DNA from: an uncultured Bryobacterales bacterium
GTDB taxonomy: Bacteria; Acidobacteriota; Terriglobia; Bryobacterales; UBA6623
Reading direction: 5' to 3'
NCBI GenBank assembly: GCA_951813065.1
Contig: CATOTH010000007.1
Span: 124,001-188,000 of the forward strand
DNA length: 64,000 bases
Shown piece by piece: positions 24,815-43,274 of this stretch. A program made the position numbers and the translations under genes. The notes beneath the pieces were generated by a model, which had not been told where the DNA came from, searched no databases, and saw nothing but the letters and a program-made list of their open reading frames with translations. Numbering within the stretch: position 1 is the first letter of the stretch; each line of letters starts with the position of its first letter.

Positions 24815-26179
24815 ATGTCGATGGGCCGCCGAACATTCTTCGGATCCGTATCAGCCTTGGCGGCACCGCAGGAGTCGGCAGGAACAGAGCGCGAACTCAA
24901 GACCGAGCTGCTGCAAGCCATCGAGGGGATTCCACTCGTCAATACCCACGCGCACATCATCCCGGAAGGGGACAGGACCTCTTCCCGGATCGACTTCTTC
25001 ACGCTCGCCGGACACTACGCGATCAATGACCTGATTTCCGCCGGCCTTTCGGGGGGCGATCTCGCTGTGGTGCGGAATCCCGACGCCCCGCAGGCGAGAC
25101 GCTGGCAGGCTTTTGAGCCGTTCTGGCAATCGGCCCGCCTGACAGGCTACGGTCAGGCGCTGCGCATCGCCATCGAGGACATCTACGGCATCGATCGGAT
25201 CTCGGGCTCAACCCTGCCCGAAATCAATCGCAGGATCGAGGCCGCGAACCGGCCCGGCCTGTACGAGGAGATCCTGATTCGCCGCTCGAACATCGCCTAC
25301 TCGGTGCTGGACGACTACTGGAATGCCGCGCCGGTCAGGCCCGACTCGAAATTCTTCGTCTCCGCCCGGAAATTTGACCGGTTCGTCACTCCGCAGTCCA
25401 GTGCCGATGTCCACAAGCTGGAAGCACTCACCGACGTTTCCATCACGGGCCTCGCCGGGCTCAAGCGAGCAATGGAGACAAGCTTCGAGCAGAGTCTCGG
25501 CATCGGCATGGTCACGGTCAAGTCGACCCTGGCGTACAACCGCGAGATCCACTACGCGGAGGTCCCGGAGCGGGACGCAGAGGCCAGCCTGCAGTCGCTA
25601 CTCCGTGGGAACCGCACACTGCCCGCTGGCTTCCGGTCTCGTGTGGAGCGTCCGTTCCGTCCGCTGGAAGACCATATGTTCCACCACCTCATGGGCTTGG
25701 CTGCGGCGAACGGCGTGCCGGTCCAGATCCACACCGGCCTCCATGCAGGAAACGGCAACTTCATCGAGAACTCCAAGCCGACCCACCTGACGAACCTTTT
25801 CTTCCTCTTCCCGCAAGTGCAATTCGACCTGTTCCACATGAGCTATCCCTACACCGGGGAGGCGTCCGCAATCGCGAAGGTCTTCCCCAACGTGCACATC
25901 GACCTTTGCTGGGCTCACATCATCTCGCCCAGCGCTGCAAGGCGCGCTCTTCATGAGATGCTGGACACGGTGCCGTCCAACAAGATCTTCGGCTACGGCG
26001 GCGACTATCGGTACCCCGAACTGAGCTACGCGCACGCGAAGATCGCCAGGCGCAACGTCGCGCAAGTCCTTGCAGAGAAGCTCAGCGAGGGGTCTTGCTC
26101 GGAGGAGGAAGCGCTGCAACTTGGCCGCAAGCTCTTGCATGACAATCCCGATGCACTGTTTGGAAAGAACCGTGGCTAG
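24815..26179 (+). CDS. Exported amidohydrolase-superfamily enzyme
   Basis: A 454-residue metal-dependent TIM-barrel hydrolase. ATG 24,815 lies 12 bases after GGGAGG and opens MSMGRRTFFGSVSALAAP, a Tat-like signal. The metal motif H-x-H is NTHAHI (His 45 and 47). Later barrel residues are QIHTGLHAG, FHMSYPYTGE and GYGGDYRYPE, whose Asp completes the site. The overall layout is nearest to uronate isomerase-like and glutamine-synthetase-associated amidohydrolases. The substrate is not clear. A sulfatase gene overlaps its end, so the two may act on the same sulfated or carboxylated sugar. Confidence 0.8.
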   Translation: MSMGRRTFFGSVSALAAPQESAGTERELKTELLQAIEGIPLVNTHAHIIPEGDRTSSRIDFFTLAGHYAINDLISAGLSGGDLAVVRNPDAPQARRWQAFEPFWQSARLTGYGQALRIAIEDIYGIDRISGSTLPEINRRIEAANRPGLYEEILIRRSNIAYSVLDDYWNAAPVRPDSKFFVSARKFDRFVTPQSSADVHKLEALTDVSITGLAGLKRAMETSFEQSLGIGMVTVKSTLAYNREIHYAEVPERDAEASLQSLLRGNRTLPAGFRSRVERPFRPLEDHMFHHLMGLAAANGVPVQIHTGLHAGNGNFIENSKPTHLTNLFFLFPQVQFDLFHMSYPYTGEASAIAKVFPNVHIDLCWAHIISPSAARRALHEMLDTVPSNKIFGYGGDYRYPELSYAHAKIARRNVAQVLAEKLSEGSCSEEEALQLGRKLLHDNPDALFGKNRG

Positions 26180-27635
26180 GGTGGCCTCCGTGCGACGATC
26201 GAAGCCTTGGGCCCGGCGCGGACTGGCGTGGATCCATCTCGCAGCCCTGCTCGCTCTCTTGGCGTCTGCCGCGGAGGCCGAGCAACCGAATTTCGTCGTG
26301 ATCTTCGCCGACGACCTCGGCTACGGAGATCTCGGAGCCTACGGGTCGACGACGATCCGCACGCCCAACCTGGACCGCATGGCGGCGGAGGGGATGCGGT
26401 TCACTGACTTCTACGCGGCCGCCCCGTTCTGCAGCCCGTCGAGAGCATCCCTGCTGACCGGTCGCTACCCGGTCCGGGCGGGAGTGCCGTACGTGCTGTT
26501 CCCGACCGAATTGACGGGTCTGCCACCTGCCGAGATCACCATTGCGGAAATCCTGTCGGACGAAGGCTACGCCACCGCGGCGATCGGCAAGTGGCATCTC
26601 GGCTGGCCCAAACCGTTCCGCGCCCAACGCCACGGCTTCGACTTCTTCTACGGTCTGCCGTATTCAAACGACATGCTCAAGTGGGAACCCGACACCGTTC
26701 TCCGGCCGCAGCACGCGTTCTGGAAACTGCCGCTGCTGGACAACGATGAAATCGTGGAGGCTCCGGTCAACCAACACACTCTGACACGGCGCTACACAGA
26801 AAGGGCTGTCCGGTTCATCAAGGAGAACCGAAACCGGCCATTCTTCCTGTACTTCCCTCACACATTCCCGCACAACCCGCAGTACGCCTCGGAGGACTTC
26901 GAGGGACGCTCGCCTCACGGACTGTACGCCGACACAGTCGAGGAAATGGACTGGAGCGTAGGAGAAGTGCTGAGGGCACTCCAGGGACTCGGCCTGGACG
27001 AGAGGACCCTTGTCGTCTTCACATCGGACAACGGCCCGACCCGCGGAGGCAACCGATGGGGGCCTCGCAGCTCGGGCGGAAGCGCCGGCGGGCTGCGCGG
27101 CAACAAGGGAACGACGTTCGAAGGGGGGATGCGCGAGCCGGGCATCTTCCGCTGGCCCGCGAAAATCGCTCCGGACACGGAAACGAGCGAGCCGGCTTCG
27201 ATTCTCGACCTGCTGCCGACCCTGGCCGAACTGGCAGGCGCGGTCGTCCCGGACGACAGGGTCATGGACGGACGGTCGATCGCGGATCTATTGCTGGGGA
27301 AGGCGGAAACGCTCCCGCAGGAAGCGTTCTTCTATTACTTCGGAGCGCAGCTACAGGCGATCCGACTCGGACACTGGAAGTTGTTTCTTCGACTGACCGA
27401 GCCTCCCGAGCAATCGGCGTCGCTGTGGTACCTGCAGAACCCTGAACTATTTGAGCGCCATCACAGAATGCGCGAGGAACCGGAACTCTACGACCTCGAC
27501 GCCGATCGCGGGGAAACTCGCAACCTCGCGTCCGAACTTCCAGACATCGTCGAGCGGCTGGACGGGATCGCCCGTCGCTTCGATGAGCGAATGCAGCGGG
27601 ACAAGCGCCGTCCGGTTTACCTGGACGGGCAGTGA
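26172..27635 (+). CDS. Exported formylglycine sulfatase 1
   Basis: A type I sulfatase of about 487 residues. Several GTG starts are possible (26,172, 26,181, 26,190); the first has GGAAAG upstream and overlaps the amidohydrolase stop. A signal peptide follows (LAWIHLAALLALLASAAEA). FVVIFADDLGYGDLGAYGS gives the two Ca-binding aspartates, and FCSPSRASLLTGRYP is the C-x-P-S-R signature whose Cys (about 87) becomes formylglycine. TSDNGP and a C-terminal ELYDLDADRGETRNLA are also typical. It removes sulfate from organic esters, probably of polysaccharides, in the periplasm. Maturation needs a formylglycine-generating enzyme, which is not in this window. Confidence 0.9.
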   Translation: MARVASVRRSKPWARRGLAWIHLAALLALLASAAEAEQPNFVVIFADDLGYGDLGAYGSTTIRTPNLDRMAAEGMRFTDFYAAAPFCSPSRASLLTGRYPVRAGVPYVLFPTELTGLPPAEITIAEILSDEGYATAAIGKWHLGWPKPFRAQRHGFDFFYGLPYSNDMLKWEPDTVLRPQHAFWKLPLLDNDEIVEAPVNQHTLTRRYTERAVRFIKENRNRPFFLYFPHTFPHNPQYASEDFEGRSPHGLYADTVEEMDWSVGEVLRALQGLGLDERTLVVFTSDNGPTRGGNRWGPRSSGGSAGGLRGNKGTTFEGGMREPGIFRWPAKIAPDTETSEPASILDLLPTLAELAGAVVPDDRVMDGRSIADLLLGKAETLPQEAFFYYFGAQLQAIRLGHWKLFLRLTEPPEQSASLWYLQNPELFERHHRMREEPELYDLDADRGETRNLASELPDIVERLDGIARRFDERMQRDKRRPVYLDGQ

Positions 27636-31299: not shown

Positions 31300-31554
31300 G
31301 CCGAGAGCATATCCGATTCATTGGAATTGAGATCGAACGGTCAAGTCCCCTCCTTTTTCGGTTGCTGCGTGAGGGATTCACCAACCGGCCGACCATGTGG
31401 ACGCTGTCCGAACTCCGCCGGTCGCCTCCTCGCTTCGGTCGCCTTGATATTGCGGCCCGAATTGAGTCGGTGGTTGGGATGAGCCCGCAGCCCGGCGGTC
31501 CATCAGAACGCCTGGCCGGCGCGCGCGAACAGGGGAATACACTGAGTGTTTCGG

Positions 31555-34104
31555 ATGGAGACCCTGCTGGATCTTCTGCCTCGGATCGAACGCCTCGGAT
31601 CCAGAGAGGCGTTGCGGTTCTCCAACGGGTACCGTACCTGGCACTGGTCCTACATCGATCTGGATGCCGGAATCCGCCGCTTTGTTGCTTTCCTGGACCG
31701 AAGCGGAATTGGAGCCGGTGACCGCCTGCTGCTGTGGTCGGAAAACCGGCCGGAATGGGTCGCCGTTTTCTGGGGCTGCTTGTCACGCGGCGTTCAGGTC
31801 GTGCCCCTCGACCATCAATCCTCTCCGGAATTTGTGAGCCGAATCGCCATCCAAACCGGCGCGAGGCTGCTAGTGCACAGCAGCACGGCGGCGAGTTCGA
31901 TCTCAGGTCCGGAGCGCTTTGCGATCGAGTCACTCAGCGGGCTGCCAAGCGGACCCCGCTTCAGTCCGACTCCGCTGAGCGGCAAGGACGTCGTCGAGAT
32001 CATCTACACATCAGGAACCACTGCCGAGCCCAAGGGAGTGATCCACCTCCATCGCAACATCTGTGCCAACCTTGACCCGATTCGAGAAGAGATCGACCGG
32101 TACAAGAAATGGGCCGGCCCCTTCCAGCCGATTCGGATCCTTGACCTTCTGCCCCTGAGCCATATGTTCGGGCAGTCCATGGGCATCTTCATCCCGCTCC
32201 TGCTTGAAGGCTCGGCGGCGTTCATAACGGGGCTGCACCCCGGCGCGATCCGCCAAGCAGTTCGAAAAGAACGAATTTCCGTTCTTGTCTGCGTGCCGCG
32301 GATTCTCGAAAGCCTGCGGGCTGACATCGAACGGCGCCATCCTCGATCGAGTACCGTCCCGAAGAGACCGGGCGGTCCGCTTCGCCGATGGTGGCGTCAC
32401 CGGGACATCCATCGAGCCTTCGGCCTGAAATTCTGGGCCTTCGTCGTCGGTGGCGCCATGCTGGACCCCGAAACTGAAGCCTTCTGGGCCAGGATCGGCC
32501 TGCTCGTGATCCAGGGCTACGGTCTCACCGAGACCAGCCCGGTGGTGTCGGTGAATCACCCGTTCCGTGCACGCCGTGGCACGCTCGGCGAAGTGATCGG
32601 CAGCCAGGAGCTCCGAATTGCGGACGACGGAGAGATCCTCGTTCGGGGGGATAGTGTCGTAGGCGAGTACCTGGAGACAGGCGCCCGCCGCGCGCGAGCC
32701 GTCGATGAGGATGGTTGGTTTCACACGGGAGACATCGGCGAGCGCGACGCAGAAGGCAGGCTGGTCTATCGGGGACGCAAGAAAGACGTGATTGTCACCG
32801 CGGACGGTATGAACGCCCACCCCGAGGACATCGAAAGAGCGCTGAGACTCGAGAGCGGGGTGCGGGACGCGGTGGTTGTCCCAGTCGGACCAGTCAGCGC
32901 GGAGAGAATCCACGCCGCGCTCATTCTCGACGGTCCAGGCCACGACCCGCTGGCGATCATCGAGCGGGCCAACCGCCGGCTTGAGCCCCACCAGAGAATC
33001 CAAGATGCCTCTGAATGGCCGGAGGACGAGTTTCCCCGCACGGCGTCAACCTTCAAGACGCAGAGACGGAAAGTGGCAGAACGCCTGTCCTCGACAGTCC
33101 GGAACCCGGATCCGAGCAATGCATCTGGGCTGGACGAAATCCTTCTGTCGCTGACCCGACGCAGCCAGGATGACCTCACGGACGACCGGCGCTTGGGTGA
33201 AGATCTGGGCCTGTCGTCGCTTGAGCGGATCGACATGCTGGCCTCCCTCGAGGACCAATACGGGATCGAATTAGATGAGACCTCCTTCGCGACGCTCTCG
33301 ACCGTGGGGGAAGTTCGCGCGTGGGTCGCGCTGCAGGCCGGGAGCCCTGCATTGGAGTCCTTGGATGAATCCACCGGCCCGAAGGCAAACGCGAGAGAAT
33401 CCACGGCACTTCGGATTCCTCCTCCGCGCTGGGCTCGGAGCCGGCCCTGCTCAGCGATGCGCGGTGCAATGCGGCGGGGGATGTTCATTCCGCTATTCCG
33501 CCACTACATCGCGCTGGATGTTGCGGGACTGGCAAATCTGGAACCCGTCGTGCCGCCAGTCATCTTCGCGGCCAACCACACCAGCCACCTCGACACCGTC
33601 GCCCTAACGGCTGCGCTCCCTGCCGAGTGGCAGAGGAAGCTGTCTCCGGCGGTGCGCCAGCAACACTTCTTCCCGTCCGGCGGGACTCCCGGCATGGCCC
33701 GGAGGATCGGGATGCGGGCGCTCTACTATCTCTGCTGCGGGTTGTTCAACGCCTATCCGTTGTCGCAAGACCTCGGCCAGGTCCGAGACTCGCTCCGGTA
33801 CACCGGCGAGCTGGTCGATGCAGGCTTCTGCCCGTTGGTTTATCCGGAGGGGAGGCTGACCCCTGACGGGTCCCTCCAACCATTCCAGCCGGGTATCGGG
33901 CTCATGGCTCAACGGCTCGAAGTGCCCGTCGTGCCCGTGTACCTGCATGGACTGTTCGATGTGATGTCCGTGCATGATTCCTGGCCGCGCAGGGGGTCCG
34001 TCCGCGTCGAATTCGGATCCCCAATCGATTCAGTCCAAGGCGAGAAATACGTTCAGCTAGCTCAACGCGTCGAAGCGAGCTTTCGTAGGATGGCAGCGCG
34101 ATAG
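31555..34104 (+). CDS. Acyl-CoA synthetase - ACP - PlsC acyltransferase fusion
   Basis: An 849-residue three-part enzyme. Residues 1-510 are an adenylate-forming synthetase: P-loop YTSGTTAEPKG at 151-161, QGYGLTETSP, FHTGDIGERDAEGRLVYRGR and KDVIVTADG. About 520-600 is an acyl carrier domain with DLGLSSLERIDM; Ser 555 should carry phosphopantetheine, though the usual Asp before it is Ser. About 640-849 is a glycerolipid acyltransferase: NHTSHLD (His 675, Asp 680) and YPEGRLTPDG (763-772). I infer that it activates a fatty acid, loads its own carrier and transfers the chain to a lysophospholipid or similar acceptor. E. coli Aas has the reverse domain order and no carrier. ATG 31,555 is preferred over GTG 31,546. 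Confidence 0.9.
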   Translation: METLLDLLPRIERLGSREALRFSNGYRTWHWSYIDLDAGIRRFVAFLDRSGIGAGDRLLLWSENRPEWVAVFWGCLSRGVQVVPLDHQSSPEFVSRIAIQTGARLLVHSSTAASSISGPERFAIESLSGLPSGPRFSPTPLSGKDVVEIIYTSGTTAEPKGVIHLHRNICANLDPIREEIDRYKKWAGPFQPIRILDLLPLSHMFGQSMGIFIPLLLEGSAAFITGLHPGAIRQAVRKERISVLVCVPRILESLRADIERRHPRSSTVPKRPGGPLRRWWRHRDIHRAFGLKFWAFVVGGAMLDPETEAFWARIGLLVIQGYGLTETSPVVSVNHPFRARRGTLGEVIGSQELRIADDGEILVRGDSVVGEYLETGARRARAVDEDGWFHTGDIGERDAEGRLVYRGRKKDVIVTADGMNAHPEDIERALRLESGVRDAVVVPVGPVSAERIHAALILDGPGHDPLAIIERANRRLEPHQRIQDASEWPEDEFPRTASTFKTQRRKVAERLSSTVRNPDPSNASGLDEILLSLTRRSQDDLTDDRRLGEDLGLSSLERIDMLASLEDQYGIELDETSFATLSTVGEVRAWVALQAGSPALESLDESTGPKANARESTALRIPPPRWARSRPCSAMRGAMRRGMFIPLFRHYIALDVAGLANLEPVVPPVIFAANHTSHLDTVALTAALPAEWQRKLSPAVRQQHFFPSGGTPGMARRIGMRALYYLCCGLFNAYPLSQDLGQVRDSLRYTGELVDAGFCPLVYPEGRLTPDGSLQPFQPGIGLMAQRLEVPVVPVYLHGLFDVMSVHDSWPRRGSVRVEFGSPIDSVQGEKYVQLAQRVEASFRRMAAR

Positions 34105-37903: not shown

Positions 37904-39268
37904 CTACGGTGCCTGAGATTCCTCCGTGTCAACCTTCCCGTCGGCGTTGCGATCCGCGCGCCTGAACATCCGCTCTGCAACTTCAACGACCTCGTCCTTG
38001 GAAAGCTTGCTGTCATTGCTGCGATCGATCTCCACGGCATGCTGCCGGACAAATCCGGCAAGCGCAGTGCGGGACCGGCCGTTTTCGTACTCGTCGCGAG
38101 TGAGTTCGCCGTTCCCGTCTCGGTCGTAGCCTGCAAACGTGGATTCCACATCCGCACTCAGTTCGGCATGGCTCAGGTCCCCGTCTCCGTTTGCATCGAG
38201 TTCCTGGAAATGAACGATCAGCCATGGGCGCCTGTTCGGGTCATTGGGATCCGGCCCGCGACGACCATCGGCACGAGGCGTACCTGCTCGACCGCCGCCA
38301 CGGGGCTCTCTTCTCCGATTGCCAGGGCCACCGCCTCTGCCAGACCTGGGTTCGTAGACTTCCGTAGTCGCCCTGCCCTCTCCGTCGATGAAGACAAACT
38401 CTGCCCCGCCCTCCGTTTGAAGTGAGTACTGAATGGAATGCGTCTTTTCCCCGAGTTCGTATTGGAGGCGATAGTTGCTCGCGTCACGAACTTCGAAGCC
38501 AGTGATTGTCGCGCCGCGAAGCGGCCTCGTGTATGGACGCACCCCACGGGCACGAGGCTGGATTGCCACCTCGCCGTTGCGCAACTCGACCGAGCCCCGG
38601 AACCCGCCATTCAGGTACGGGTACTCCCTGGTCGCGTGATAGTGATACATGCCGTCTGGCCCGGTGTGGCCGTTGAGCCAGTCAAGATCCTCGGCGCTCG
38701 ATCCATCCGCCTCGCGGTAGCTGTAGATTGGGAATCCGTCCAAGGCCCAAGCCACTGGCAGTCCCTGGCCGCCACGCTCCGCCAAGTGCACTGGTGCAAG
38801 GTGGTAGTGATAGTCGTCGGCCCTGCCGGCGTGGCCCCCGAACTCGTCGAGTTCTCCGGCTAGGTTCGTGTCTGTGCGGCCATCTTGCTTGATGGGGTTG
38901 AAGATCGGGATGCCATTCACGGCAACCGCAATGGCACCGCGAAAAAGAGTCTCTTTCCCTGAAACCGGTGAGTCGGCGAAACGAGCCCGCAGCGGAAGCC
39001 GGAATGCATTGTCACCGGAATATGGCTGGGGAATCGGCACCTGCTGATTCCAGGCGCGGATGCCGACCATCATGCGGTGGTCCGGCATGGAGTTGGATTC
39101 CGCATAGAAGTAGTCCTTGTCCCAACGGACGTCTACGCTGTCAAGAAACGGACGGAACGATTTCGCTATCGTTTCGGGATCAAGGGTAAACGTCTTCGAG
39201 GGCACTGCAGAACCGGCTGCGACTGCGAGGCCTAGTGCGAAGGTTGCCAGCAAGTACAGTCGGCTCAT
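37904..39268 (-). CDS. Exported YHYH-domain protein with four EF-hands
   Basis: A 454-residue secreted protein (signal LYLLATFALGLAVAAGSA). The YHYH domain has DDYHYHLAP at 151-159 and GMYHYHAT at 207-214, with FGGHAGRADD and LDGFPIYSY between, a histidine-rich metal-like site. A Gly/Arg-rich linker follows near 310-345. Then come four Ca-binding loops: DANGDGDLSHAE, DRDGNGELTRDE, DRSNDSKLSKDE and DRNADGKVDTEE. The ATG at 39,268 overlaps the stop of a sulfatase by four bases, so the two are co-translated and probably work together outside the cytoplasm. Catalysis is not proven for this family. Confidence 0.85.
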   Translation of the reverse strand: MSRLYLLATFALGLAVAAGSAVPSKTFTLDPETIAKSFRPFLDSVDVRWDKDYFYAESNSMPDHRMMVGIRAWNQQVPIPQPYSGDNAFRLPLRARFADSPVSGKETLFRGAIAVAVNGIPIFNPIKQDGRTDTNLAGELDEFGGHAGRADDYHYHLAPVHLAERGGQGLPVAWALDGFPIYSYREADGSSAEDLDWLNGHTGPDGMYHYHATREYPYLNGGFRGSVELRNGEVAIQPRARGVRPYTRPLRGATITGFEVRDASNYRLQYELGEKTHSIQYSLQTEGGAEFVFIDGEGRATTEVYEPRSGRGGGPGNRRREPRGGGRAGTPRADGRRGPDPNDPNRRPWLIVHFQELDANGDGDLSHAELSADVESTFAGYDRDGNGELTRDEYENGRSRTALAGFVRQHAVEIDRSNDSKLSKDEVVEVAERMFRRADRNADGKVDTEESQAP

Positions 39269-40716
39269 CGGTTGCCTTGACGTTGGCCCTGGCGGTTCTG
39301 CCTTCGGCCCCTGGACCCCTGGTCGCGATCTCCAGACCGTTGCCGACCGCCGCGTTGAGGTTGTGAGACTTCCTGATTCGGATCGAAATTTGCGTTGATG
39401 CGCGGCAGTCCCGCGTTGACGCTGGTGAGGTAGGCGTCCAGCATGCCCTCCAGCGCACTGACTCTCTCGGGCATCGCTGAGGACAGGTTGCTGCGCTCGT
39501 ACGGGTCGTCGCCGATATTGAAGAGCCTCGGCTTGTCGGGTTCCTCGTAGAAGCGAATCAGCTTGTAGTTGTCCAAGAGCATTGCCGAGGCTGGGCCCAA
39601 CGGGTCGGAATCATAGTGTGGAAAATGGAAGACAATCTCGTCCCGCAACCTGCTCACGGAACCACGTCCCTTGGCGGTCAAGACATCAGCCAAACTGCCG
39701 CCTTCGACGTCTTGGGGGAGCTTGTCGGCCACGCCGACTAGGTCGGCCACCGTGGGAACCAGATCCATCCCAGTCGCCCGGACGCGCGATACGGAGCCGG
39801 GCTCGATTCCCGGTCCACGGAAGAACAGCGGGACCCGCAAGCCTCCATCCCAAACCGTGCCTTTGCCCAAGGCAAGGGGGCGATTGCCAGAACCAGGAGT
39901 GCCGTGATCGGTTGTGTAGAAGACGTAGGTCTCGTCTGCGATACCTAGCTCGTCGAGCTTGTCGAGAACCATCCCGATGGTGATATCCATGTCATAGATC
40001 ACTGCTGCCAACTCAGTTTCCCGCACGTTGCGGCCACGACTTGTCGGCCAACCGGAGACTATTTCGTTCGTGCTTTCCCGAGCGTCTGCCGAACTGCGCC
40101 CACCGTAATGCGACATTTGGACATAGAAAGGCTGGCCGGCCCTGGCCTTGGCTTCTATGAACCGCAAGCCTCTCTCCGTGATTCCGTAAGCCTGCTTCGG
40201 GTTAGGACTTTGCACGTTCTCCGGACCACCATTGTTGTTCGGGCCATCGGTCTCGTCGAAGCCGTGCTCCGTCGGGCTTCTACGCCCGACATGCCACTTC
40301 CCGAAATGCGCCGTCGCGTAGCCTGAATCCCTCAAGACCTCGGCGATCGTCGTCTCTTCGAGCGGCATCTCGAGGGTGGGGCGCGGTTCGACGAGCTTGA
40401 CATTGGGGCCGGCACGCAGACCCACAAATGTCATTCCCAGCTTCGCGGGGCTCTTGCCGGTGAAGTAGGTGGCACGCGATGGAGTGCACCTCGGGGACGG
40501 CGCGTAGAAGTGCGCGAAGCGCATCCCGCTCTCCGCCAAGCGTTCGAGATTCGGAGTTCGGAAGTAATCGTTGCGCGACTCCGCGATCTCGGGATCCATT
40601 CGAACCGAGGTGCTGTTCCATCCTTTCCCTTCGCCTTGAATGAAGACGAAGCTCGGCTTGCCGTTCGCCGAAGCAACCAGCACCGTGGACAAAATCAAGA
40701 TGGCTCGTACATACAT
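39265..40716 (-). CDS. Exported formylglycine sulfatase 2
   Basis: A 483-residue type I sulfatase from ATG 40,716 with AGGAG ten bases upstream and signal AILILSTVLVASANG. The active site signature is RCTPSRATYFTGKSPAKLG (Cys 77). The N-terminal metal loop is unusual: where sulfatases have A-D-D-x-G, this has FVFIQGEGKGWNSTSVRMD, so the paired aspartates are missing. Later parts are normal: GKWHVGRRSPTEHGFDETDG, YTTDHGTPGSGN and MPERVSALEGML. The tail (about 455-483) is Gln/Arg/Gly-rich. The loop change suggests altered metal binding or a special subfamily. It is the first gene of a pair with the YHYH protein. Confidence 0.85.
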   Translation of the reverse strand: MYVRAILILSTVLVASANGKPSFVFIQGEGKGWNSTSVRMDPEIAESRNDYFRTPNLERLAESGMRFAHFYAPSPRCTPSRATYFTGKSPAKLGMTFVGLRAGPNVKLVEPRPTLEMPLEETTIAEVLRDSGYATAHFGKWHVGRRSPTEHGFDETDGPNNNGGPENVQSPNPKQAYGITERGLRFIEAKARAGQPFYVQMSHYGGRSSADARESTNEIVSGWPTSRGRNVRETELAAVIYDMDITIGMVLDKLDELGIADETYVFYTTDHGTPGSGNRPLALGKGTVWDGGLRVPLFFRGPGIEPGSVSRVRATGMDLVPTVADLVGVADKLPQDVEGGSLADVLTAKGRGSVSRLRDEIVFHFPHYDSDPLGPASAMLLDNYKLIRFYEEPDKPRLFNIGDDPYERSNLSSAMPERVSALEGMLDAYLTSVNAGLPRINANFDPNQEVSQPQRGGRQRSGDRDQGSRGRRQNRQGQRQGNR

Positions 40717-41034
40717 TCCTGCTGCTCCTACTTGCCGTGGAGGAGTTCCATGCGAGAGCACGGTCTCTCGATTCCACTCTCTAACATCCCATGAGACGAA
40801 CCAGACCCGCGCGCGTTTCCGCCGCTGAATTCTTGACGCAAACTTGACATCACGGGGTCCAGAGTCCCCAGAACAGGCCGGACGTAGATCGGAAGACGGG
40901 TCGCGCGGGAGAGCGGAACGCTTCTCCGCACTCGTTCGACTCACGACCGTAAACGGCTACATCGCAGCCCGGCTGGCGCCGCGTCACGTTGCTTGACTGA
41001 CCCCGGCCGTTCCGGGTTGTCGGGCAGCCTGGAT
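40717..41034. other. Spacer upstream of sulfatase 2
   Basis: This 318-base spacer separates the DUF6351 gene stop from the sulfatase start on the same strand. No gene is seen. It should contain the sulfatase promoter, but I see no convincing -35/-10 pair on the minus strand. Confidence 0.35.
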
Positions 41035-43107
41035 TCAGTACCGAATCCAGGTCCGTTCGAGGGGCACCTGGCCAATTCCCAGCTTGGAGAAGTCGCAAAC
41101 GCCGTCAGGAAAGACAGCCCTCAGGCGATTCAGCTGCTCCGAGTTGAGGGACTGCCCGTAGTCGGCGGGATCGAGCGGCTTCAATTGGCACTTCAGGATG
41201 TCGCCCCCAAGCGGGGCCCCGGCCGCAATTCTGGGATCGTCGCTCGGAGGGTAGAGCTCGCTGCAGGGCCCACTCTCCTCTTGCGCCCCGTTGTCCGCAA
41301 GCCGCTCCCCTTCGGCCGACCAGCAGGCGTCGCTCAGCTCCTCCGGCCTGCTGCGAGAGATCGCAGCGACTGGCTCGTCTCCCGACTCGTCCGCAGCCAT
41401 TTCGTCCAGCCACTGATCCATCAGCCGGACAACATCCAACCCCGGCGGGGGATTTGTCAGGACGACGCGGTTGCCGGAGCTACCGTGCGCTCGCTGCAGT
41501 CGCGCGCCCGTCATGAACGTGCGAACGCGGTCGTGGATGTTTCCGCTCGGGTCCGAGTATCTGCGCGTGTCGATGATCGGAATCGCGCCAAGCGACCCGC
41601 CGCCCGAGTTTACGCGGCCGGTTTGATAGAGGAGTCTCACGGCATCCGTGTCTGCGGTCGAACGGTCTGGCACGATGTTCCCGTCGGCATCGAATCCACC
41701 GACCGTTTCGTTAAGCTCGATGAACCGTTCGGCGTCTATCAGGCCGTCGTTGAAGGCCTTCAAGCCATATTGGACGCCCACGTTGTCGAGTGCTCTTTGG
41801 GCCAGCCCGCTCGCGCTGTCGCGCCCGACGAGGTTGACCAGATTGTCGTGAAAGCCGCAGCGAATGCCGTCGGGTCTCAGGTCCGGGTGATAGATCAGTT
41901 CCCTGGGAACTACTTCGTGGCAACTGCCCGGTTGAATCAGGGATGGAGAGAACGATCTCATCCAGCTCTCGCAAGTCGCCCACGTCGCAAATCCCGAAAC
42001 GGCCTTCTTCTGGGCGTCGCTCCAGTCGTGCGAGCTGTTGTCTATGGCCCGCGCCAGCAGCGAGCAATCCGTGATCGGCGGAGCAAGCGTCGCCGTATCC
42101 GGGTAGCTCGCGCCTGGAATGATCCCATCCAATAGGCCCGGATAGTTCTGGGCGATCAGGTGCTGTTGCATCGCGCCCCCCGATCCTCCCGCTCCGATGG
42201 TGTGCACGGGGGCACCGAAGCTCTCGGTGAAATGCTCCTTGACCATCATCGCTGTCTCAGCTGAAATCACGTCGTTGCAGTTGTTGCCGAACACGTTGAG
42301 CGACGACACCGCAACCGCGTATCCGTTCGCAAGGGAGGGGACATCCTGCAACGGGGAACCTATCAGGCCCTGCCGATAGCCGGCGCGACAGCCCCCGCCG
42401 AATCGGTACACCAGGCGGCCGTTCCAGCCCGGGGTGGCGCTCCATGGATCGGGGAGAGCGTCCGCAGGATCGTGCAGGAACGCAATCTCGTAAATCGCTC
42501 GATTGATCGTGCCGCTTTCGACGCGGACAATAAAATCCTGTTCATGCCCCTGCGTGGTCGTCGTGCGGGCAATATCCGACGGGCGTGGCACGGAAGGATC
42601 CAGGGGTTTGAACACTGGAGGGATCCTGGATCTGCCGGCTCCCCGCCGCTGCGGTTCAACCGTGTCGGTGCTCCTGTAGTAGTACGTGCTGCGCGTCTGC
42701 ACACTGCAATTGGCGTCAGACGGCGGCCCCAGCCCAGCTAGTTCGGTCTGACAAACAAAGGGTGCCTGATGCGGTCCCGAGAACACGGGGCCTGTGCTGG
42801 GGTGATTGATTAACTCAAGACTGGCGGACCGTTCTCCCACCTTCGCCGTGAGAGTGTTCTTGCCCACCTTCAGTTCGGACAGCCGCCCAACCAGGCGAGA
42901 CGGGTCGAGGACACCCCGGAACGAGGAAGTGACGTCGCGGCCGTTCAACTCGACCTGCAACGAGCTGGCGCCGGCACCCGATACCTCAACGAGCGCGTCT
43001 CCCCCCGTGACCATGTCCGGGGGGCCAGACAGGACCGAAAGGTCGAGTCGCTGCTCGGCACAGCCAGTCGCGACTGCCAAGCAAAGGATCGTCGCCGCTA
43101 TTCGCAT
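41035..43107 (-). CDS. Lipoprotein DUF6351 (tannase-like) hydrolase
   Basis: A 690-residue exported protein. ATG 43,107 is chosen because GGAGGG lies nine bases upstream; GTG 43,110 is possible. The N-terminus ends in the lipobox ATGC. An Ig-like region precedes (LSGPPDMVTGGDALVEVSG, VELNGRDVTSSF). The hydrolase domain has the nucleophile elbow GAGGSGGAMQQHLIAQ near residue 305, LDGIIPGASYPDTATL, and CHEVVPRELIYHPDLRPDGI with paired cysteines as in tannase/feruloyl esterases. It probably cleaves ester bonds in plant or algal polymers; the substrate is not known. Confidence 0.75.
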   Translation of the reverse strand: MRIAATILCLAVATGCAEQRLDLSVLSGPPDMVTGGDALVEVSGAGASSLQVELNGRDVTSSFRGVLDPSRLVGRLSELKVGKNTLTAKVGERSASLELINHPSTGPVFSGPHQAPFVCQTELAGLGPPSDANCSVQTRSTYYYRSTDTVEPQRRGAGRSRIPPVFKPLDPSVPRPSDIARTTTTQGHEQDFIVRVESGTINRAIYEIAFLHDPADALPDPWSATPGWNGRLVYRFGGGCRAGYRQGLIGSPLQDVPSLANGYAVAVSSLNVFGNNCNDVISAETAMMVKEHFTESFGAPVHTIGAGGSGGAMQQHLIAQNYPGLLDGIIPGASYPDTATLAPPITDCSLLARAIDNSSHDWSDAQKKAVSGFATWATCESWMRSFSPSLIQPGSCHEVVPRELIYHPDLRPDGIRCGFHDNLVNLVGRDSASGLAQRALDNVGVQYGLKAFNDGLIDAERFIELNETVGGFDADGNIVPDRSTADTDAVRLLYQTGRVNSGGGSLGAIPIIDTRRYSDPSGNIHDRVRTFMTGARLQRAHGSSGNRVVLTNPPPGLDVVRLMDQWLDEMAADESGDEPVAAISRSRPEELSDACWSAEGERLADNGAQEESGPCSELYPPSDDPRIAAGAPLGGDILKCQLKPLDPADYGQSLNSEQLNRLRAVFPDGVCDFSKLGIGQVPLERTWIRY

Positions 43108-43274
43108 CACTGCTTCCCTCCACGTGCCGAAGAGATCGAGGCCTAATCGACAACAATGGAAGGTATCTTACCGCCCCGGGGACATTTCGGGGAGGGCGGT
43201 TTGTCGTTCCTTGTGCTGTGGACTGTCGCCAAGGCTCGGCAGAAACACCCCAACTGTTGGATAATCGGGGCGCC

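Follow-up and report, generated by a model that had tools for sequence, protein, structure and literature searches.

The window, i.e. the whole stretch of 64,000 nucleotides analysed here, comes from a soil bacterium of the Bryobacterales (Acidobacteriota) and carries a gene whose product combines an acyl-adenylating domain, an acyl carrier domain and a PlsC acyltransferase domain. Judged by its sequence, this protein is neither ElbD itself nor Aas and belongs to an already known kind, the ElbD-like proteins devoid of a fatty-acyl reductase (FAR). It is probably an acyltransferase that activates a fatty acid, loads it in cis on its own carrier and transfers it to a glycerolipid. The AMP-binding domain would convert a free fatty acid and ATP to acyl-AMP; the 4'-phosphopantetheine arm carried by Ser555, primed by a cellular phosphopantetheinyl transferase (PPTase), would then take up the acyl group in cis; the PlsC domain would finally move this group from the carrier to a glycerolipid with a free hydroxyl, for which a lysophospholipid or an alkyl/acyl-glycerophosphate is the likeliest candidate. 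Both free acyl-CoA and free acyl-ACP would be dispensable. Loading in cis, transfer in cis and the acceptor are steps that we infer. In Bryobacterales the protein would play an accessory part, in remodelling or salvage; in CPR/DPANN relatives, together with an adjoining holo-ACP synthase (AcpS), it may be the main or only route by which acquired fatty acids are esterified.

Gene and domain organization

The features of the gene are listed in Table 1. The open reading frame is uninterrupted from 31546 to 34104 on the forward strand. The ATG at 31555 is equivalent to the start in all genus-mates ('METLLDL'), so that the coordinates of the coding sequence and the numbering of Ser555 given in the original prediction are right, the serine codon being found where expected. 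The order synthetase, carrier, PlsC on a single chain, also predicted there, is borne out by Pfam matches for each domain (AMP-binding, PP-binding and Acyltransferase), which all exceed the gathering cut-off. Searches with phmmer match the carrier domain to AcpM and other ACP structures (best 1.5e-7) and the PlsC domain to the PlsC structure 5kym (E 1.3e-4).

Table 1. Features of the three-domain gene (positions in the window)
Feature	Position	Strand	Evidence or remark
Three-domain CDS	31555..34104	+	849 aa; alternative start GTG 31546
AMP-binding (acyl-adenylating) domain, aa 14-373	31594..32673	+	PF00501 5.2e-57
AMP-binding C-terminal subdomain, on to ~aa 515			FACL/aryl-CoA ligase structural match, aa 1-515
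Lys501, A10 lysine of adenylating domain	33055..33057	+	65/65 three-domain homologues
Acyl carrier domain, aa 526-590	33130..33324	+	PF00550 (PP-binding) 1.5e-8
Ser554, residue preceding carrier Ser555	33214..33216 (TCG)	+	
Ser555, predicted 4'-phosphopantetheine site (GLS-S-L, second S)	33217..33219 (TCG)	+	76/76 homologues incl. ElbD-type
PlsC/AGPAT acyltransferase domain, aa 666-797	33550..33945	+	PF01553 3.5e-12
HX4D catalytic motif H675..D680	33577..33594	+	His and Asp in 76/76
PEG motif, aa 764-766 (PlsC glycerol-phosphate binding motif)	33844..33852	+	Pro and Glu in 76/76

Conservation of the fusion and of its active sites

The fusion was found in all 11 genomes of the genus, with 65-83% identity (two copies are truncated by contig ends), and a whole-protein homologue search recovered it in about 36 of 61 relatives of the order. 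A chance fusion or an assembly error is therefore ruled out, full-length homologues being present across many genomes, and the gene is a normal part of the gene set of its lineage. Three copies are present in one genome of the order (G032). Beyond the order, the fusion is widespread in Acidobacteriota and also occurs in records labelled Latescibacterota, TM6, Chlamydiota (Waddliaceae), Actinomycetota, CPR bacteria and archaea. Some record labels are questionable: L109 is named Saccharibacteria, yet its 2.0 Mb genome is syntenic with Acidimicrobiaceae, and L056 (Rhizobacter) and L124 (Proteobacteria) nest within Acidobacteriota; mislabelling or contamination is probable in each case.

We aligned 11 ElbD-type with 65 three-domain proteins. 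None of these 76 homologues departs from the carrier serine, from His and Asp in HX4D or from Pro-Glu in PEG, and the A10 lysine is invariant in the 65 three-domain proteins; as far as sequence can tell, the catalytic motifs of all three domains are complete. The residue preceding the carrier serine is more variable: among three-domain proteins it is Ser in 39, Asp in 17, Thr in 5 and another residue in 4, and it is Asp in all 11 ElbD-type proteins. The Ser-Ser-Leu noted in the original prediction in place of Asp-Ser-Leu is thus real ('GLSSL' versus '.DSL'), but it confers no special character on this protein, being a clade-wide habit and a common, variable feature of the family rather than a defect. 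A carrier killed by an Asp to Ser change is unlikely, since Ser, Thr and Asp alternate at this site where all other motifs stay intact; this reading is further weakened by the archaeal carriers that are paired with AcpS (see below) and have LSSI, LSSL or LTSV there.

As a separate observation, six of the 11 ElbD-type proteins (L160, L162-L165 and L170, from Acidobacteriota) have Glu, Gly or Ser in place of the A10 lysine and keep the carrier and PlsC motifs; an impaired or altered synthetase step is possible in these proteins.

Relationship to ElbD

The myxobacterial ElbD protein has the architecture reductase-synthetase-ACP-AGPAT, and most ether lipids depend on it; in vitro, ACS and ACP activities were demonstrated, and acyltransferase activity of the isolated protein was not detected (PMC9131029). 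According to the account of Lorenzen et al. 2014 given in that article, the reductase is missing from most ElbD-like homologues elsewhere (PMC9131029). A count of ElbD homologues (M. xanthus accession ABF88003.1) found them across numerous phyla, Latescibacterota, Acidobacteria and Woesearchaeia among them (PMC11868695). The novelty that the original prediction implied by comparison with E. coli Aas alone does not stand: ElbD is a closer precedent, and reductase-less ElbD-like proteins had previously been noted.

For comparison we took eleven ElbD-type proteins from Acidobacteriota, picked by architecture among proteins of 1444-1496 aa; the M. xanthus sequence is not one of them. A full Pfam scan of two of the eleven gave NAD_binding_4, Sterile, AMP-binding, PP-binding and Acyltransferase. 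PF07993 is present in the ElbD-type proteins scanned and absent from the window protein in a Pfam scan. The window protein aligns colinearly over its whole length with all eleven, at 26-30% identity. In a tree obtained by a quick method and rooted at midpoint, it groups with other three-domain proteins of Acidobacteriota and one Latescibacterota protein (support 100), and the ElbD-type and Pyrinomonadaceae-like proteins form a separate set (support 100). Domain order, position in the tree, colinear homology with ElbD and the differences from Aas described below together place the window protein in the known FAR-less ElbD-like kind.

This kinship raises the alternative of an ether lipid enzyme acting as in the ElbD pathway: the acyl-carrier would deliver its chain to a separate fatty-acyl reductase, the PlsC domain would acylate an alkyl-glycerophosphate and the product would be an ether lipid. 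ElbD is indeed the closest characterised relative, ether lipids are known of Acidobacteriota (PMC10087280), and the genome of the window organism encodes FAR-type PF07993 proteins (G000:C7:32633 and C2:245216). However, these genes do not lie near the three-domain gene, the window protein has no reductase domain of its own and falls outside the clade of reductase-bearing ElbD-type proteins, and Verrucomicrobial elbD carriers without ether lipids have been reported (PMC11868695). We consider ether lipid synthesis unlikely to be its role.

Pairing with AcpS in CPR bacteria and archaea

A same-strand neighbour matching the holo-ACP synthase family PF01648 was observed beside the three-domain gene in Woesearchaeota, archaeon ARS102, Saccharibacteria and BP5.bin44 relatives. 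Among 380 genomes from the phylum to which the Saccharibacteria genome belongs, five encode the full three-domain protein, with AcpS immediately upstream in 5/5; the three added CPR cases were identified with an HMM derived from the first six rather than with Pfam. Among 193 genomes from the phylum of the Woesearchaeota one, six have the three-domain protein; AcpS is the immediate neighbour in four of them, lies one gene off in one and is absent in one. With two further archaeal contigs (L096 and L106), AcpS adjoins the gene or is one gene off in 7 of 8 Woesearchaeota-type cases, and in 12 of 13 small genomes when CPR and Woesearchaeota-type cases are combined (paired loci L207-L211, L177-L179, L181, L182, L096 and L106, with one intervening gene in L178). 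An AcpS gene also stands beside the three-domain homologue, or one gene off, in two Acidimicrobiales contigs.

In 11 of these 13 small genomes there is no PF00550 match besides the fused carrier, and the adjoining AcpS is the only PF01648 match in all five genomes tested, these counts being taken on MAGs of uncertain completeness. No ketoacyl-synthase match was found in four of the five tested and one weak match in the fifth, with a model that also matches archaea generally, as seen in a control search. No PlsY match was found in the five tested small genomes nor in the Waddliaceae genome. That a PPTase should be kept beside the sole visible carrier is hard to explain unless this carrier is modified, which strongly suggests that the fused carrier is functional and pantetheinylated. 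By homology the argument extends to the Bryobacterales protein, whose genome has its own PPTases located elsewhere. Activation, carriage and transfer within one chain, the core of the original prediction, are thus supported as a predicted function by the complete motifs and by AcpS beside homologues that mostly hold the sole carrier.

An earlier report describes CPR bacteria as devoid of ACP-requiring enzymes and calls the origin of their membrane lipids elusive (PMC7242380). The combination of AcpS with the synthetase-carrier-PlsC protein, and in some cases an MFS transporter, might be an autonomous acyl-esterification module, by which CPR/DPANN organisms without fatty acid synthesis or any other carrier would build diacyl membrane lipids from scavenged fatty acids and lysolipids, with the Bryobacterales protein as the free-living branch; we put this forward tentatively, as a possibility somewhat short of even. 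The pair (CPR 5/380; archaea 5/193 and two contigs) would offer a concrete candidate route for lipid acquisition, including the formation of bacterial-type ester lipids in an archaeon. In the literature searched, a scope that excludes most subscription papers, no earlier description of the pairing was found.

The adenylating domain and the acyl donor

An AlphaFold model computed from 50 homologues has a mean pLDDT of 87 and a pTM of 0.87. About 465 residues of its adenylating domain superpose at 2.7-3.0 A on 5x8f, 3cw9 and 7thq, which are thioester-forming or carrier-trapped structures, compared with ~9-12 A on 4fut, 3r44, 3cw8 and 4fuq, several of which are in the adenylate-forming state. The modelled pose is thus of the thioester-forming type, compatible with carrier loading although short of proof of it. 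The PDB fold search covered the adenylating domain well, and only that domain, and is therefore uninformative on the PlsC part.

The best structural matches of the domain are FACL/aryl-CoA ligases. Its PF00501 match spans 360 residues on 377 profile positions without extra insertion. Since the domain is most similar to CoA ligases, CoA may be loaded besides the carrier, or in its place. Taken to its end, this likeness, together with the lack of an apparent FAAL-type insertion against the Pfam profile, would make the protein a CoA ligase joined to an acyltransferase, in which acyl-CoA is the true donor and the carrier a regulatory or vestigial linker. Such a linker fits poorly with a carrier serine kept in 76 of 76 homologues and with AcpS kept beside homologues in genomes mostly without other carrier, which makes acyl-CoA an improbable sole donor.

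Genomic context and acceptor lipid

Acylation of a glycerolipid from the carrier finds its contextual support in the relatives. The window gene stands alone between unrelated genes: its neighbours are DinB-like and GyrI-like genes on the opposite strand, as well as a TonB receptor and a radical SAM protein, no lipid gene was seen among them, and the synteny is preserved in some genus-mates only. We therefore gained nothing from operon-based inference at this locus. The genome also encodes PlsY, four other PlsC-domain proteins and small free carriers; with these alternatives and no lipid neighbour, the acceptor in this organism is itself something we infer.

Among the relatives, in Waddliaceae (L111:4239-8282), CDP-alcohol phosphatidyltransferase and CdsA-like genes precede the three-domain gene. 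In four Acidobacteriota of a Pyrinomonadaceae-like group, a DAGK/YegS-type lipid kinase lies upstream, identified by Pfam in L122 and by gene clustering, as members of the same cluster, in L118, L120 and L121. MFS transporter genes are close to the three-domain gene and its AcpS at L178:275-1462, L182:2-1132, L106:6338-7534 and L107:12315-13640 (by Pfam, three ATG22-like and one MFS_1), and members of the same cluster are also near it in L109 and L114; this neighbourhood recalls the LplT-Aas association. Synteny in relatives fits a predicted role in acylating glycerophospholipids or reacylating lysolipids. Other alcohols or amines can also be substrates of PlsC-fold domains, and the window gene has no lipid-gene neighbours, but the synthesis or remodelling of something other than a glycerophospholipid (an acylated secondary metabolite or an aminolipid) is very unlikely given the invariance of the PE(G) motif, which usually goes with glycerol-phosphate substrates, and the phospholipid-gene and lipid-kinase syntenies just described.

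Other genes of this organism were recorded in passing. Two of them are on G000:C2: the protein of L172:5118-7583 fuses a fatty-acyl reductase-type PF07993 domain to a sulfotransferase (PF13469), and that of L173:5087-7858 (924 aa) has a carrier ahead of the AMP-binding domain, the reverse of the window order. The window also encodes two sulfatases and a DUF6351 tannase-like protein (26070-27635, 39265-40944 and 41035-43110).

Comparison with known systems

The window protein, a representative of a widespread putative lipid enzyme of Acidobacteriota, can now be placed relative to ElbD and Aas. It corresponds to the C-terminal two thirds of ElbD, with the same order of synthetase, carrier and AGPAT/PlsC. 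It differs in lacking the N-terminal fatty-acyl reductase, so that it begins directly with the AMP-binding domain; in standing outside the reductase-bearing clade; and in being monocistronic, whereas elbD belongs to the elb operon with elbB, elbC and elbE. The carrier serine is preceded by Ser instead of the Asp of ElbD-type proteins, and the A10 lysine, missing from 6/11 of the latter, is kept in all three-domain proteins.

With Aas, the window protein would share the two catalytic activities on one chain and, probably, the reacylation of lysophospholipids; in some distant relatives an MFS transporter adjoins the gene, as in Aas-LplT. In Aas, however, PlsC comes first and soluble holo-ACP is used (PMC11416262), an arrangement already pointed out in the original prediction and consistent with the matched positions in Aas models. 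The window protein has the reversed domain order and a carrier domain that Aas lacks, and its scores against the NCBIfam Aas models (92.8, 129.2 and 125.9 bits) are far below the respective cut-offs (886, 1349 and 1221).

In chlamydiae, scavenged fatty acids are handled by AasC (CT776), an acyl-ACP synthetase, and by CT775, a lysophospholipid acyltransferase (PMC5693948). These are separate proteins working on free ACP, whereas the three-domain protein is one chain with its own carrier; a chlamydial relative, the Waddliaceae of L111, has the fusion in an operon-like array instead. Finally, FAAL-ACP didomains, like the window protein as predicted here, adenylate a fatty acid and then load a fused or cognate carrier. 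They differ in what follows the carrier, PKS/NRPS modules as opposed to PlsC, and apparently also in the adenylating domain, which in the window protein has no apparent FAAL-type insertion when judged against the Pfam profile and structurally best matches CoA ligases.
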